Source of the DNA: Pantoea rwandensis
GTDB lineage: Bacteria; Pseudomonadota; Gammaproteobacteria; Enterobacterales; Enterobacteriaceae
NCBI RefSeq assembly: GCF_002095475.1
Contig: NZ_MLFR01000019.1
Coordinates: 1-64,000 of the forward strand
Reading direction: 5' to 3'
DNA length: 64,000 nt
The notes beneath the pieces were generated by a model. It saw only the letters and a list, made by a program, of their open reading frames with translations. It was not told where the DNA came from and did no database searches. A program made the position numbers and the translations under genes. This document shows positions 10,228-56,289 of this stretch, piece after piece (the first letter of the stretch is position 1; each line of letters starts with the position of its first letter).

Positions 10228-10320
10228 GCGAAGTCTCCTGTCTGAATGAGAAATCTACTATCGCCTGGTAATTGCGGAACTAATAGTGAATACTTTTAGA
10301 AAACTGTTCCGGGTTTATCT

Positions 10321-12035
10321 ATGCGTGAACTTCATCGGGTGAATCAGTTCCAGCGCCTGTGGCAATTGAGCCAAGGCGAGCCGCAGCGTCTGAGTGTGGC
10401 GGCAATGGCACAACACTGCTTTTGCAGCGAGCGTCATGTACGCACGCTGTTACGTCAGTGGCAGGATGCGGGCTGGCTGCACTGGCGCGGTGAAGCCGGA
10501 CGTGGCAAACAGGGCGAACTGACGTTTCAGGTTTCACCGGATCAGTTGCGCCAGCAACTCTTAACCCAACAGTTAGCGGCAGGCGAAGCGGTGCAGGCGC
10601 TGCAAGTGTTAGATTTGCATCCCGAGCGCTTGGTGAAAATGCTGCGCCCGCTAATGGGCGGTCAGTGGCAAAACCAGGCTCCGGTGCTGCGTATTCCCTA
10701 TTACCGTGCCATGGAGCCACTGCGCCCGCTGAGCCTTACCGGGCGTGCCGAGCAACATTTACTGAGGCAAATTTTTTCAGGCTTAACGCGCTTCCGTGGC
10801 AATGACGTGGAAGGTGACCTTGCCCACCACTGGCAGCATGATGGCAGCGGAAAAGAGTGGTATTTCTGGTTGCGCCCGCAGCTCAGCTGGCATAACGATG
10901 AACCGATACACGCGGCGCAATTAGCCACTCAGCTGCAGCAGATTATGCAAACCGTCCGTGGCGGCCGCTTACTGGCTTCCATTGAACGCATTGAGGCACC
11001 ACATCCCTTGGCTCTACGTATTCAGTTGCGTCAGAGCGATTACTGGCTCCCGCAGCGACTGGCGCATCAATTCTGTCTCCTCCCCCACCCTGACTCGCCA
11101 GAGACAGGATGCGCCCCTGGAAACTGACGCATTTTACGCCTGAATGGGTTCGCCTTGAGAGCCATGCCCGTTGGCACCTGCAACGCCCCTTGATTCAGGT
11201 AGTGGAATATTGGATCACCCCACAGTTATTTGCGCATGGCTTGGGCACCAGCTGTCGCCATCCGGTTCAGATTGCGATTGGCGATCCCGATGAACTGGAT
11301 GCGCTGCGCCCGGTGGATCACAGCATTAGCCTCGGTTTTTGCTACCTGGCGCCACGCATTTCACACCGTCTCAGTGCTGCTCAAGCCAAAGCCCTGATCG
11401 CTTTAATTCAGCACAGCGGTGTGATTCAGCAATTACCCCTGGATGAGGGGCTGATTACTCCAAGCCAGGAATTGCTGCCCGGCTGGCCCGTACCACCTAT
11501 GAAAATGACCCGAGCAACACTGCCGGAAAAACTGACGCTGCACTATCATCTGCCGATTGAGTTGCATGTTATGGCCCAAGCGTTGGTGTCCTTGCTGGCT
11601 CAACATGGATGTGAACTGACCTGCGTTTTCCATGATGTAAAAAGCTGGCGCGATGATACCGACCTGAGCGAGGCCGATGTAGTGATGGGCGATCGCCTGA
11701 TCGGAGATGCCCCTTTGTTTACCCTGGTGAACTGGCTGGAAAATGATCCGCTATGGAATCCGCTACGCGCCTCAGTGCTGCAAGCACTCCTCAGCACCAT
11801 CGCGCAACAACAGAGCCCAGAACGACGCACCGCATTGACGCATCAACTGTTTCAGCAGTTGATGTATGAAGGGCATCTACTCCCACTGTTTAACTACCGC
11901 TATCAGGTGTTTGCCCCCCCGGGTGTTGAGGGGATCCAACTCAATACACTGGGCTGGTTTGATTTCACCCGCGCGTGGATTCCACCACCTGCCAAAGCCA
12001 GCACTGTTCAGCCCGCGCATGAGCCAGTACCATAG
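10321..12035 (+). pseudogene. ybaE: SgrR-family regulator YbaE, frameshifted
   Basis: Two open frames together give the full-length YbaE protein (about 570 residues). The first (10321-11127) carries the SgrR-type winged helix (CFCSERHVRTLLRQWQ) and the start of a solute-binding-protein-like domain; the second (effective from about 11113, stop 12035) carries the rest. Around 11113 the text reads TGC-GCC-CCT-GGA; inserting one G gives TGC-GGC-CCC-TGG and restores the family sequence GPxxLTxF. This looks like a single missing base. Natural YbaE would be a DNA-binding regulator with a ligand domain; the ligand is unknown. If real, the truncated protein keeps only the DNA-binding half. Confidence 0.85.
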
Positions 12036-16371: not shown

Positions 16372-18726
16372 CTATTTTGCCGTCGCAACCTGCATACCGT
16401 AAGGCGCATTTTCCAGTGCCAGGTTCAGCACTTCTTCGATACGCTTCACAGGATGAATGGTCAGATCGGCAATCACGTTCTGTGGAATTTCTTCCAAATC
16501 ACGCTTGTTCTCATCCGGGATCAGCACCGTTTTGATGCCACCACGATGCGCTGCCAGCAGTTTCTCTTTCAAACCACCGATTGGCAGTACCTGACCACGT
16601 AAGGTGATTTCACCCGTCATGGCCACGTCAGAACGCACTGGGTTACCCGTCAAACAGGACACCAGCGCGGTACACATCGCGATACCCGCACTTGGGCCAT
16701 CTTTCGGTGTTGCCCCTTCCGGTACGTGCACGTGAATATCACGTTTCTCGTGGAAATCACCGTTAATACCAAGTTTCTCCGCACGCGCACGAACCACTGT
16801 TAACGCCGCCTGGATAGACTCCTGCATGACTTCACCCAGAGAGCCGGTGTAGGTCAGTTTGCCTTTACCCGGTACGCAGGCGGTTTCGATGGTCAGCAGA
16901 TCGCCACCCACTTCCGTCCACGCCAGACCGGTAACCTGACCTACGCGGTTTTCAGTGTCCGCGCGACCATAGTCAAAGCGCTGCACGCCCAAGAAGTCGT
17001 GAAGGTTTTCACCGTTAATCTTGATGCTCTTCTTGGTCTTGTCCATTAACAGCGTTTTCACTGCTTTACGGCACAGCTTGGAGAGTTCACGTTCCAGACT
17101 ACGCACGCCCGCTTCACGGGTGTAATAGCGGATAATGCCGATGATGGCGCTATCGTCAACGCTGATCTCTTTCTCTTTCAGCGCATTACGCTCAATCTGT
17201 TTCGGCAGTAAATGCTGTTTAGCGATATTGAGTTTTTCATCTTCGGTATAACCCGAGAGACGAATCACTTCCATACGGTCCAACAGCGGTGCCGGGATAT
17301 TCATGGAGTTTGAGGTCGCCACGAACATGACATCAGAGAGATCGTAATCCACTTCCAGATAGTGATCGTTGAACGCGATGTTCTGTTCTGGATCCAGCAC
17401 TTCCAGCAATGCTGAAGCCGGATCGCCGCGCATATCGGACGACATCTTATCGATCTCATCCAACAGGAACAGTGGGTTCTTCACGCCGACTTTCGCCATT
17501 TTCTGGATCAGTTTACCCGGCATAGAACCGATGTAAGTACGACGGTGTCCGCGGATTTCCGCTTCATCACGCACGCCACCCAGCGCCATTCGAACATACT
17601 TACGGCCAGTGGCCTTCGCGATGGACTGGCCGAGTGACGTTTTACCCACGCCTGGCGGTCCGACGAGACACAGAATCGGCCCTTTGATTTTGCTGACGCG
17701 ACTCTGCACCGCAAGATACTCAAGAATGCGGTCTTTGACACGTTCCAAACCGTAGTGGTCGATATCCAGTGTTTCCTGCGCTTTCAGCAGATCTTTTTTC
17801 ACCTTGCTACGCGCGACCCACGGCACCTGAACCATCCAATCGATATAGCCGCGAACCACTGTCGCTTCTGCAGACATTGGCGACATCATCTTCAGCTTCT
17901 GCAGTTCTGCTTCGGCTTTTTCGCGCGCTTCAGTCGGCATTTTTGCCGCTTCAATTTTACGCTTCAGTGCTTCGTATTCGTCCGGCGCATCATCCATTTC
18001 GCCCAGCTCTTTCTGAATGGCTTTCATTTGCTCATTCAGATAGTACTCACGCTGGCTTTTCTCCATCTGCTTTTTGACGCGATTACGAATGCGCTTCTCA
18101 ACCTGCAGCAGATCGATTTCGGATTCCATCATCGCCATCAGATATTCCAGACGCTCATTCACGTCGGACATCTCCAGCACTGACTGCTTATCAGCCAGTT
18201 TCAGCGGCATATGCGCTGCCACGGTGTCGGCGAGACGCGCCGCATCGTCAATGCTGTTCAGTGAGGTCAAAACCTCAGGTGGAATTTTTTTGTTCAGTTT
18301 GATGTAGCCTTCAAACTGATTAATCGCCGTACGCACCAGCACTTCCTGCTCGCGCTCTTCAATTTCTGGCGAGATCAGGTATTCAGCTTGAGCAACAAAA
18401 TGGTCGCCATTGTCAGCCAGTGTGGTGATATGCGCGCGCTGCAAGCCTTCAACCAGCACTTTTACCGTGCCATCGGGCAGCTTGAGCATCTGCAATACGG
18501 AAGCGACGGTCCCTACCGAGAAGAGATCGTTAATACCAGGTTCATCCGTTGAAGCCTCTTTCTGGGCAACCAGCATGATCTTCTTGTCATGATCCATCGC
18601 CGCTTCAAGGCAACGAATCGATTTTTCCCGACCAACAAACAACGGAATTACCATGTGCGGATAAACCACCACGTCGCGCAGAGGCAACACGGGGATTTCA
18701 ATGCGTTCAGAACGCTCAGGATTCAT
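16372..18726 (-). CDS. lon: ATP-dependent protease Lon
   Basis: 784 residues, the exact E. coli length. LAN domain (about 1-200), coiled region, AAA+ module with Walker [10 protein letters not shown] near 356-364 and Walker B LFLLDEID, and C-terminal serine-lysine protease domain with the nucleophile in PKDGPSAG (Ser679 equivalent) and Lys722 in GLKEK. Start at 18726 after AGAGAGAGCTCT as in E. coli. A heat-shock promoter precedes it. Degrades misfolded proteins and short-lived regulators such as SulA and RcsA. Confidence 0.98.
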
Positions 18727-18809
18727 AGAGCTCTCTCTTAGTTTAATGTCCGCCAGGTGATGGGTACCGCATAAAAGAAGTTTGCAGTTCAACCCACAGG
18801 ATATTGAGT

Positions 18810-18912: not shown

Positions 18913-20183
18913 TTATTCGCCAGAAGCTTGAGCTTCATGCTTACCATAAATCAGCATCGGCTCAGATTGACCATCAATCACTGACTCATCAATCACCACT
19001 TTTTCCACGTCATCCATCGATGGCAGATCGTACATGGTTTCGAGCAGCGCACCTTCAACGATAGAACGCAAACCACGTGCACCGGTTTTACGTGACATCG
19101 CTTTCTTGGCAATCGCCGTCAAGGTTCGTCACGGAACTCCAGCTCAACGCCTTCCAGGTTGAACAGCGCCTGGTACTGTTTGGTCAATGCGTTCTTCGGC
19201 TCACGCAGGATCTGAATCAGCGCTTCTTCACTCAATTCACTCAGCGTCGCCACGACTGGCAGACGACCGATGAACTCCGGAATCAGACCGAATTTAATCA
19301 GATCTTCTGGCTCAACCTGCGACAGCAGCTCACCTTCGCTGGCTTTCTGCGATTTTCCTTTTACCGTTGCACCGAATCCAATGCCCGATCCGGTTTCAAC
19401 ACGCTGGGAAATCACTTTATCGAGGCCAGCAAATGCACCACCACAGATAAACAGAATCTTAGAGGTATCAACCTGTAAGAATTCCTGCTGCGGATGTTTA
19501 CGTCCGCCCTGCGGAGGAACAGCAGCCACAGTCCCTTCGATCAATTTCAGCAGAGCCTGCTGTACACCTTCACCAGACACGTCACGGGTGATTGACGGGT
19601 TATCTGACTTACGAGAAATCTTATCGATTTCATCGATGTAGACGATACCGCGCTGTGCTTTCTGCACATCGTAATCACACTTCTGCAGCAGTTTCTGGAT
19701 GATGTTTTCCACATCCTCACCCACATAACCCGCTTCGGTCAGGGTGGTGGCATCCGCCATGGTAAACGGAACATCCAGCAGACGAGCCAGGGTTTCAGCC
19801 AGCAACGTTTTACCACTACCGGTAGGCCCGATCAGCAGAATGTTACTTTTGCCCAGCTCAATACCATTGCTGGTATCGCCATTGCGCAGACGTTTGTAGT
19901 GGTTGTACACCGCTACCGCCAGCACTTTTTTGGCCTTTTCCTGACCGATGACGTAATCATCTAAATGATGACGAATTTCATGCGGCGTCGGCAGAGCACT
20001 GCGCTCGCGATGCGGGGCAACTTCTTTAATTTCTTCGCGAATGATGTCATTGCATAGATCAACACATTCGTCGCAAATATACACTGACGGCCCGGCAATC
20101 AGCTTACGGACTTCATGCTGGCTTTTGCCGCAGAAAGAGCAGTACAGCAACTTACCTGAACCGTCTTTGCGCTTATCTGTCAT
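18913..20183 (-). pseudogene. clpX: ATP-dependent unfoldase ClpX, frameshifted near residue 353
   Basis: The N-terminal frame (20183 to 19119) holds the zinc finger (Cys15, Cys18, Cys37, Cys40), Walker A GPTGSGKT, Walker B IVYIDEID and the RKH and IGF-type loop regions ([17 protein letters not shown]). It then meets a premature TGA just after EFRDE. The remaining 69-70 residues, with sensor-2 [10 protein letters not shown], continue in the next frame to 18913. Adding one base (GAA-GCC-TTG in place of GAA-CC-TTG) restores a 424-residue protein. As read, the product lacks sensor-2 and the small AAA subdomain and should not hydrolyse ATP properly. clpP upstream is intact. A sequencing or consensus error is at least as likely as a real mutation. 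Confidence 0.9.
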
Positions 20184-20310: not shown

Positions 20311-20934
20311 TTATTGGCGATGCGTCAGGATGGAATCGACCAAGCCATACTCTACCGCTTCGCTGGCAGAGAGGAAACGATCACGCTCGGTGTCGCGTTC
20401 GATCTCTTCCAGTGATTTGCCGGTGTGTTCAGCCATCAACTCATTCATACGCTGTTTCACTTTCAGGATTTCACGCGCATGGATTTCAATATCCGTCGCC
20501 TGGCCCTGATAACCGCCCAGCGGCTGGTGAATCATTACGCGGGAATTCGGCAGGCAGAAGCGCTTGCCTTTCGTGCCTGCGGTCAGCAGGAACGCACCCA
20601 TTGAACAAGCCTGACCCATACAAATGGTGCTGACATCCGGCTTGATAAATTTCATCGTGTCGTAAATCGACATCCCGGCAGTAATCACGCCACCTGGCGA
20701 GTTAATGTAGAGATAAATGTCTTTTTCAGGATTCTCAGCTTCCAGAAACAGCATCTGCGCCACGATCAGGTTAGCCATATGATCTTCAACCTGGCCGGTC
20801 AGGAAGATCACACGCTCTTTGAGCAGGCGGGAGTAGATGTCGTAAGAACGCTCGCCGCGCGAGGTTTGTTCGACCACCATTGGCACCAGCGCCATGTGCG
20901 GTGCAGTAAATTCACGATCGCCACTGTATGACAT
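20311..20934 (-). CDS. clpP: ClpP protease subunit
   Basis: 207 residues. Serine protease barrel that works with ClpX and ClpA. Propeptide of 14 residues ends at APHM before ALVPMVVEQ; catalytic triad Ser111 (QACSMGA), His136 (MIHQPLGG) and Asp185 (TERDRF) are all present. First gene of the clpP-clpX operon, with a heat-shock promoter about 145 bp upstream. The partner clpX is frameshifted in this sequence. Confidence 0.98.
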
Positions 20935-33518: not shown

Positions 33519-35038
33519 TCAGAACAGGCCCAAAGGCGCAGTGCCATAGCTGACCAGCAAATTTTTGGTTTGTTGATAGGCGCTCAGCGCCATTTTGTGC
33601 GTCTCGCGTCCCACACCCGATTGCTTATAGCCACCGAAGGCCGCGTGTGCGGGATAGATGTGATAGCAGTTAGTCCAAACGCGACCGGCCTTGATACTCC
33701 TGCCCATCCGGTATGCCAGGTTAGTGTCTCGCGTCCACACACCCGCGCCGAGGCCAAACTGAGTCTCATTGGCGATAGCCAAAGCTTCGGCTTCATCTTT
33801 AAAGGTGGTGATGCCAATCACTGGCCCAAAAATCTCTTCCTGGAAACAACGCATCTGGTTAGTGCCTTTGATCAGGGTTGGCTGGATGTAGAATCCGTTA
33901 TCCAATTCAGCAGCGACGCTGGCGCGATCGCCCCCTGTAAGAATTTGCCCGCCTTCATCACGTGCAATATTGATATAAGACAGGATTTTGTCGAATTGCT
34001 GGCGTGATGCCTGAGCACCGATCATGGTGTCGGTATCCAGCGGATCACCACGGCGGATATTGGCTACCTTATCCATAACGCGCGCCATGAAAGCGTCATA
34101 GATGGATTCATGGATCACGCCCGCGATGGGCAGGTACACACTTCACCTTGGTTAAAGAAGCCCAGCACCAAGCCTTCTACCGCTTTTTCGATAAAATCAG
34201 CTTCACCGTCCATTACATCGGCAAAGTAGATATTCGGCGATTTACCGCCCAGCTCAACCGTGCAAGGGATGATGTTTTCAGCGGCACATGCCATGATGTG
34301 ACGTCCGACCGGCGTTGAACCGGTAAAGGCGATTTTGGCAATACGTTTACTGGTCGCCAGTGCTTCACCGGCTTCCCGACCAAAACCCTGCACCACATTT
34401 AACACACCGGCCGGGAACAGATCGCCAATCAGCTCCATCAGCAGCGTAATCGCGAGCGGCGTTTGTTCCGCTGGTTTCAGCACGACGCAGTTACCGGCTG
34501 CCAGCGCTGGAGCCAGTTTCCACGCCGCCATCAATAACGGGAAGTTCCACGGGATGATTTGCCCAACCACGCCCAGCGGCTCATGGAAATGATAAGCCAC
34601 GGTGGTTTCGTCAATTTCTGCAGTACTGCCTTCCTGAGCGCGCAAACAACCGGCGAAGTAGCGGAAGTGGTCTACCGCTAGCGGTAAATCGGCATTCAAC
34701 GTTTCACGGATTGGCTTGCCGTTGTCCCAACTCTCTGCCACGGACAACATTTCCAGATTAGCTTCAATGCAATCGGCCACCTGCAACAGCAAGTTGGCGC
34801 GGTGCTGTACGCTGGTTTTTCCCCAGGCGTCAGCGACCTGATGAGCAGCATCCAGTGCCAAATCGATATCGCGCGCATCCGAACGAGGAAACTGAGCAAT
34901 ATCGCTGCCATCCACTGGCGAGGTGTTAGTGAAGTATTGGCCGCTGAGCGGCTCTACGAATTTGCCCGCAATAAAATTGCCGTAGGTCGCTTTAAAACTG
35001 ACTAAAGCGCCGGGCGTACCGGGATGTGCATAACGCAT
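33519..35038 (-). pseudogene. aldB: Aldehyde dehydrogenase (AldB-like), frameshifted
   Basis: Two frames together make a full-length NAD(P)-aldehyde dehydrogenase of about 506 residues, closely similar to E. coli AldB. The first (35038 to about 34118) ends in [11 protein letters not shown], including the catalytic Cys; the second (to 33519) continues IHESIYDAFMARV and ends in SYGTAPLGLF. At about 34117 the text reads GCG-TGA-TCC; one added base (GCG-CTG-ATC-C) restores the family sequence RALIHES. The start has AAGGAG six bases upstream. If real, the truncated product loses part of the catalytic and the oligomerisation regions. Preceded by a sigma-54 promoter and divergent from an AcoR-like activator. 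Confidence 0.88.
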
Positions 35039-35131
35039 CGCAAACTCCTTAATGTAGGGTCAGGTGTTTCTTGGCTGGCAGCGGCAATCCGTGGGTCAAC
35101 AGATTGAACAGCCCGCTGCCGTATACACCAT

Positions 35132-51831: not shown

Positions 51832-53679
51832 TCAGATAGACAGCTTGTTGATGCGTTTGCCGCCGTACACCAGGTTAACGATGGCACGGGTGCCGACGAT
51901 AGCGGTAAACATAGACGTCGCGATACCGATAGCGGTGGTGATCGCAAAGCCTTTGATAGAACCGGTACCGACCGCATAAAGAATGATAACTTTAATCAGC
52001 GTAGTGACGTTGGCATCGACGATACTGGAGAAGGCGCCTTTATAGCCTTCATGAATCGCCTGCTGTACCGAGCGTCCGTTACGCAGTTCTTCTTTAATAC
52101 GTTCGTTAATCAACACGTTGGCATCGACTGCAACCGCCAGCGTTAGCACGATACCGGCAATACCCGGCATGGTGAGCGTTGCGCCCGGCAGCAGTGACAT
52201 GATACCGACAATCAATACCAGGTTGCACAACAGTGCACTGGATGCAATCAGACCGAACTTCTTGTAGAACACCACCATAAACAGAATGGACGCGATCAGA
52301 CCCCACAAGCAGGCTTCGAGACCCTGTGTGATGTTCTGCTGACCCATGGTTGGACCAATGGTACGCTCTTCCACAATCTGAATTGGCGCAATCAACGCAC
52401 CGGCACGCAGCAACAGCGAAAGCTGACGCGCTTCGTTCGGGTTGTTAATACCGGTGATACGGAAGCTGTTACCGAGGCGCGACTGAATGTTCGCCACGTT
52501 AATCACTTGTTCCTGCTTCACCAGAATTGAACGGCCATTGGCGTCTTTCTTACCGCTGTCCTTGTACTCCACAAACAGGGTCGCCATCGCTTTACCGATG
52601 TTGTCCTTGGTGAAGTTAGACATGATGTTACCGCCCGCGCCATCCAGTGAAATGTTCACCTGTGGCTGGTTGTACTCATCCATGCTCGAGGTAGAGTCGG
52701 TAATATGGTCACCGGTCAGAATCACGCGCTTGTACAGCACCACTGGCTGGCCATCTTGCGATTGCTTGACTTCCGAATCACCCGGCACACGGCCGCTAGC
52801 GGCTGCGCTTGGATCAACGGTGGTATTAACCAAACGGAATTCCAGGGTTGCGGTTGCACCCAGAATCTCTTTGGCGCGCGCGGTATCCTGAATACCTGGC
52901 AACTCAACCACAATGCGGTCAGAACCCTGACGCTGCACTAATGGCTCGGCCACGCCAAGCTGGTTAACACGATTACGCAGGATATTGATGTTCTGCTGAA
53001 CCGCGTACTCACGTGCTTCGCTCAGACGCGCATCGGTCATCACCGCACGCAGCGTATCGCTGCCCACACTGGAGATCACCAAATCTTGATGACGCGGTGA
53101 CAAGTAGCTGATCGCCGCATCACGGCTGGCAGCGTCACGGAAACGCAGTTCCACACCGTAGTTAGCGATTTTGTTCACAGTGGTGTAAGGAATGCTTTTG
53201 TCGCGCAGGTCACTGCGCAGGCCGTCAGCATTCTGCTCTTGCAGTTTGCCCAGCGCGGTATCCATATCCACTTCCATCAGGAAGTGAACGCCGCCACGCA
53301 GATCAAGACCGAGTTTCATCGGCTGTGCGGCAAGCAGTGTCAGCCAACGTGGAGTGGCCGGTGCGAGGTTAAGTGCCACCACGTAGCCATCGCCTAACGC
53401 GCTAGTCAGGGTATCGCGCGCGCGCAGTTGCACATCCTGATTGTCAAAACGGGCCAGGATGGCACCATTTTCCAGAACGAGGGATTTGCTCTGAATATTG
53501 TCTTGTTTCAGTACATTCTGGATCTGATCCAACGTTTGCTCACTGGCGGCGCCACCGCGCGCACCAGTGATCTGAACGGCCGGATCCTCACCATAAAGGT
53601 TAGGAAGCGCATAGAGCAGGCCGACGATAATCACGACGACCAGCATGATGTACTTCCACAAAGGATAACGGTTTAACAC
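51832..53679 (-). CDS. secD: Protein translocase subunit SecD
   Basis: 615 residues, exactly the E. coli length. One N-terminal helix, a large periplasmic domain (P1 head and base, with [16 protein letters not shown]), and five further helices including the proton-relay Asp region ([14 protein letters not shown]). Middle gene of yajC-secD-secF. Confidence 0.98.
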
Positions 53680-53704
53680 GGCAGTTCCCTTCGGGAAGAA
53701 AAAA

Positions 53705-54037
53705 TTACAGCGCCTTCATAGTACCTTTCGGCAGAACGGCGGCCACGAAATCACGTTTAACAACTACTTCAGTGGTGTCGTTCAGGGCGATAGAAACATA
53801 GCCATTGTCAGCGACTTTGGTCACACGACCCACTAAGCCACCGCTGGTCAACACTTCATCACCTTTAGAGATGGAATCCATCAGCTTCTTGTGATCTTTT
53901 GAACGCTTCTGCTGCGGGCGCAGAATCATGAAATAGAAGATCAGACCAAACACCACCAGCATGATCACCAGAGAATAAGGACTTCCCTGAGACGGAGCGC
54001 CTGCTGCGGCAACGGCGTCAGAAATGAAAAAGCTCAT
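53705..54037 (-). CDS. yajC: Sec translocon accessory protein YajC
   Basis: 110 residues with one membrane helix ([20 protein letters not shown]) and a cytoplasmic tail ([20 protein letters not shown]). Associates with SecDF. 25 bases upstream of secD and 25 downstream of tgt. Confidence 0.97.
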
Positions 54038-54062
54038 TAAATTTCCCTCATTGATAGAATTA

Positions 54063-56289
<2,227 letters not shown>

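Follow-up and report, generated by a model that had tools for sequence, protein, structure and literature searches.

A one-base deficit in clpX of a Pantoea rwandensis genome assembly and its probable origin as a consensus error

The clpX locus as assembled

The window, that is, the whole stretch of 64,000 nucleotides analysed here (contig NZ_MLFR01000019.1 of the Pantoea rwandensis assembly GCF_002095475.1), contains a clpP-clpX-lon neighbourhood that follows the same order as tig-clpP-clpX-lon of E. coli (Table 1). The clpX gene occupies positions 18913-20183 of the minus strand. In the list of open reading frames (ORFs) it is represented by a frame of 354 codons that finishes in ...LEFRDEP and is closed by a premature TGA at 19121-19119. 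A preliminary description of this DNA had placed the TGA right after EFRDE, but one Pro codon intervenes. The same description held that the remaining 70 residues are conserved in another frame down to the normal stop, and tblastn searches with the ClpX proteins of two relatives, G037 and G019, agree with it. Residues 1-361 of the G037 protein match in one frame and residues 355-423 in another, the latter being 100% identical; for the G019 protein the out-of-frame C-terminal part is 99% identical. The whole gene has 1271 bases, compared with 1272 in both G037 and G019, where it codes for 423 residues.

Table 1. Positions, strand and basis of the features discussed for the window.
Feature	Positions	Strand	Basis
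clpX, first part, with zinc finger and AAA domain	19119..20183	-	ORF, Pfam, structure alignment
clpX, remaining 70 codons, in another frame	18916..19125	-	99-100% identity to ClpX of G019 and G037; ClpB_D2-small
One-base deficit and premature TGA	19119..19126	-	Alignments with relatives
clpP (unbroken frame of 207 aa), upstream of clpX	20311..20934	-	ORF; named by E. coli gene order
lon, intact frame, downstream of clpX	16372..18792	-	ORF, starting at an upstream TTG as listed; E. coli order
SgrR/YbaE-like gene, lacking one base compared with G019 and G037	10246..12035	+	Alignments; family searches
ExaC-type aldehyde dehydrogenase gene, lacking one base compared with both G019 and G037	33519..35099	-	Alignments; family search

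The identity of the gene is clear from the ClpX profile TIGR00382, which matches the first frame with 621.8 bits (curated cut-off, 370.75) over positions 5-361 of 414, and positions 356-414 are matched in another frame with 68.5 bits. The truncated product keeps the N-terminal C4 zinc finger (PF06689, zf-C4_ClpX, residues 14-50) as well as the AAA domain (Pfam AAA_2). The small AAA+ domain with sensor 2 is incomplete in the first frame as assembled, owing to the stop after codon 354. The out-of-frame segment corresponds to positions 36-75 of the 81 of the ClpB_D2-small profile, i.e., the second half of the small AAA+ domain, plus the tail, and includes the GARGLR motif, which we take to be sensor 2. 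Residues 1-353 of the assembled ClpX can be aligned without gaps with solved ClpX chains (8e91_A, presumably E. coli ClpX, and others), whereas the final 70 codons continue in a different frame. An AAA+ unfoldase that lacks this part of its small domain, sensor 2 included, is not expected to be a working ATPase, and no working ClpX ATPase would be expected from the gene as assembled. A profile search of the 5,775,402 bases (69 contigs) of this genome found no second ClpX match above the family cut-off.

clpX in other genomes of the genus

A genus-wide search found 60 clpX loci, 29 of which were fetched and aligned with the sequence studied here. One missing base beside position 19122 constitutes the sole gap column over the whole gene, and only this sequence lacks the base: all the aligned genus mates (29/29) have it. 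The one-base deletion proposed in the preliminary description, which also suggested comparing clpX of related assemblies, is thus borne out. The deletion does not lie in a homopolymer. Of the 60 other genomes, 57 have a clpX frame of normal length, and slightly different lengths are listed for G011 and G043 (419 and 426, respectively). The intact ClpX of the genus has 423 residues; the figure of 424 previously given for the restored protein is that of E. coli. The clpX of G054 is fragmented too, since residues 1-54 and 129-353 match separately and the stretch between them is missing (contig C48, 29173-30058).

One-base breaks elsewhere in the assembly

A first pass over 208 kb of this genome (G000) revealed, besides clpX, isolated one-base breaks in the SgrR/YbaE-like gene, the ExaC-type aldehyde dehydrogenase gene and recG. 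An early nucleotide scan for breaks was set aside due to its many false flags at ORF starts. In a wide pass, 599 ORFs of G019 (586 kb) were aligned to 808 kb of G000 on eight contigs, the assembly being 5.8 Mb long. This comparison listed 35 shifts, of which 31 were separated from the ORF ends by more than 60 bases. From four of the ORFs, five shifts were excluded: two in a sigma-54-type regulator, both upstream of its first domain, and one in each of three ORFs judged non-genic by eye. Another three, in NupC-like, ornithine carbamoyltransferase and PstS genes, were also dropped because they lie upstream of the start of the family model. The remaining set is composed of 23 interior frame breaks in 21 genes, namely 22 one-base deletions and a single one-base insertion, although 22 would be an equally fair total, since a CynX-type gene has two breaks, the first of which (codon 26) likewise precedes the start of its model. 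These 23 do not include the aldehyde dehydrogenase break, because an overlapping ORF replaced it in the G019 list.

Family searches covered the broken genes except C41_19627 and C41_59457, and the genes named in this way include recG, tssL, cheA, flgJ, fliI, flhB and entE, together with a LysR regulator, sfnG, a bisC-type reductase and a LacI-type regulator. The sites vary: 7 of the 23 breaks affect a base that does not belong to a run, 5 affect a two-base run, and 7 fall in runs with a length of at least five, a class that accounts for about 1.6% of the bases.

Comparisons in different directions were made under a common rule, by which shifts beyond codon 60 were counted. The G019 ORFs showed 22 shifts on G000 (599 ORFs; 19 shifts after dropping the same four ORFs), and the G037 ORFs showed three (209 ORFs; clpX, aldehyde dehydrogenase and recG). 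Between the two relatives, no shift was counted for G037 ORFs on G019 (0/215) and three for G019 ORFs on G037 (3/214); two of these are in the dropped regulator, leaving one two-base insertion at codon 60. When ORFs of G000 were placed on G019, 10 shifts were counted (616 ORFs): seven correspond to G000 breaks viewed from the other side, and the remaining three (C17_80562, C2_6277 and C5_72407) do not; of these, C17_80562 and C2_6277 may be real breaks of G019. The comparison of one relative with the other covers about 208 kb, mostly core, and for the accessory stretches the sole control is that of G000 ORFs on G019. The excess of one-base indels in conserved genes sits in G000, of which 0.8 Mb out of 5.8 Mb was sampled.

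The broken genes were also inspected for signs of natural decay. Their pN/pS is 0.057 (21 genes), as against 0.052 in 578 others, with medians of 0.062 and 0.046, respectively (Mann-Whitney p 0.33), so that pN/pS gives no clear sign of relaxed selection in these 21 genes. In-frame stops were present in 22 of 622 ORFs when G019 was compared with G000; the controls gave 15/633 (G000 on G019), 5/295 (G037 on G019) and 12/297 (G019 on G037), and no clear excess in G000 was found relative to these three comparisons. Ten of the 22 stop-bearing ORFs, those with later stops, were subjected to family searches. Three contained Pfam domains, all of them downstream of the stop, and seven had none; a nonsense break inside a domain was therefore found in none of the ten. 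The other twelve have stops at or before codon 46. Relaxed selection and mixed lesion types, which characterise natural pseudogenes, were not clearly found in the 21 broken genes; a very recent pseudogene would look the same.

The breaks are not evenly distributed. With the aldehyde dehydrogenase gene added, contigs C3, C7, C17 and C19 contain 5 broken genes in 344 ORFs, and C1, C2, C4 and C5 contain 17 in 256. Fisher's test gives p 0.0014, but the two groups were defined after the data had been inspected; a chi-square test across all eight contigs gives p 0.029. E. coli K-12 protein references (ten stretches, 467 ORFs) were used as well, with essential genes in view; good matches within the sampled 1.6 Mb were obtained for 127 of these ORFs, too few for a clean test. 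Six of these 127 were flagged on this genome, only clpX being a frame split and the other five in-frame stops at codons 18-40; on G019 and G037, the E. coli control flagged 3 of 101. At one break per 25 kb, about five frame splits would be expected in those 130 kb, compared with the one observed, and this result leans mildly against a uniform error. No essential gene was recognised among the broken ones in this small sample. The unevenness could fit either selection on real breaks or uneven read depth.

In positions 1-100000 of contig C4, 8 of 100 aligned ORFs are frame-broken, including flagellar and chemotaxis genes and tssL, which is denser than in the core contigs. Part of the large contig C1 resembles Pantoea megaplasmids: among 42 plasmid records that match it, 20 are from Pantoea, and the best match aligns over 53% of the query with 79.7% identity.

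Origin of the clpX frameshift

The comparison with related sequences suggests that the frameshift of clpX is most probably a consensus error of the assembly. One base would have been dropped from the consensus at clpX, as at other sites of the assembly, in which case a normal ClpX of full length would be made by the organism; we infer that the base was lost during sequencing rather than by mutation. A consensus error is favoured over gene decay because conservation is similar in broken and unbroken genes, the lesions are of one base (22 of 23 being deletions), in-frame stops show no clear excess, and sites of several kinds are affected. The preliminary description had considered that a base-calling error would explain the deletion as well as a true mutation would. 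The deletion itself stands, but the two readings are not of equal weight, because the sampled part of this assembly has many more one-base deletions in conserved genes that are absent from relatives, and there is no clear relaxed selection in those genes.

Indel errors that split genes are described for draft bacterial assemblies, for instance in the Kastor report (PMC12007338). The situation there is similar in that indels splitting conserved genes were found against related sequences; however, it concerns long-read assemblies, and the method behind the present assembly may differ. Since one-base deficits recur across the assembly, claims of gene loss drawn from this genome require read support. 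Caution is needed with clpX, recG, mutS, cheA, fliI and others, all of which appear broken, and no gene break here is trustworthy singly.

A real and very recent loss of function, by which the protein would end after 354 residues while ClpP and Lon remain, appears unlikely. It agrees with the deletion shown by the assembled sequence and with the undecayed downstream frame, as expected of a recent event; in addition, core contigs carry fewer breaks, as selection would produce, and clpX is dispensable in E. coli. However, the sampled genome has many one-base defects of the same kind, 22 of 23 of them deletions, in genes with no clear relaxation of selection. If this loss were true, the strain would be a natural ClpX-minus strain with intact ClpP, useful with regard to ClpXP control in the genus. 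Programmed ribosomal frameshifting, which would yield a full-length ClpX from the sequence as it stands, is scarcely credible. It is true that the second part lies in the -1 frame with respect to the first and that the stop comes immediately, but no X_XXY_YYZ slippery heptamer was seen by eye before the premature TGA, for which reason this candidate was set aside. Moreover, the sequence ahead of the TGA would be compatible at most with a +1 shift, leading into the wrong frame, and the 29 aligned relatives (29/29) have a single plain frame at this place.

The breaks could also have been produced by a mutator strain in which mutS is truly broken, those of clpX, recG and others being later frameshifts. 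The mutS gene (contig C26, approximately 53413-55928, minus strand) lacks one base near codon 128 of the G019 ORF, whereas its family match is unbroken in the six relatives searched (6/6), and the share of break sites in runs of five or more bases (7/23, in about 1.6% of the bases) points in the same direction. Nevertheless, this explanation is very improbable. A loss of mismatch repair fits poorly with many non-homopolymer sites, a deletion bias and the lack of a clear stop excess, all of which are seen in this genome: of the 23 sites, 7 involve a lone base and 5 a run of two, 22 of the 23 lesions are deletions, and the frequency of in-frame stops is not clearly raised. Given one break per 25 kb, error alone would strike a gene of the size of mutS about one time in ten. 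The mutS deficit thus does not decide between error and mutator, mismatch repair being viewed here through mutS only. It is equally far from likely that a natural strain has lost ClpX, MutS and RecG together, as a recent mutator in its first wave of one-base frameshifts with core genes spared by selection. If the loss of mutS were real, the strain would be a mutator.
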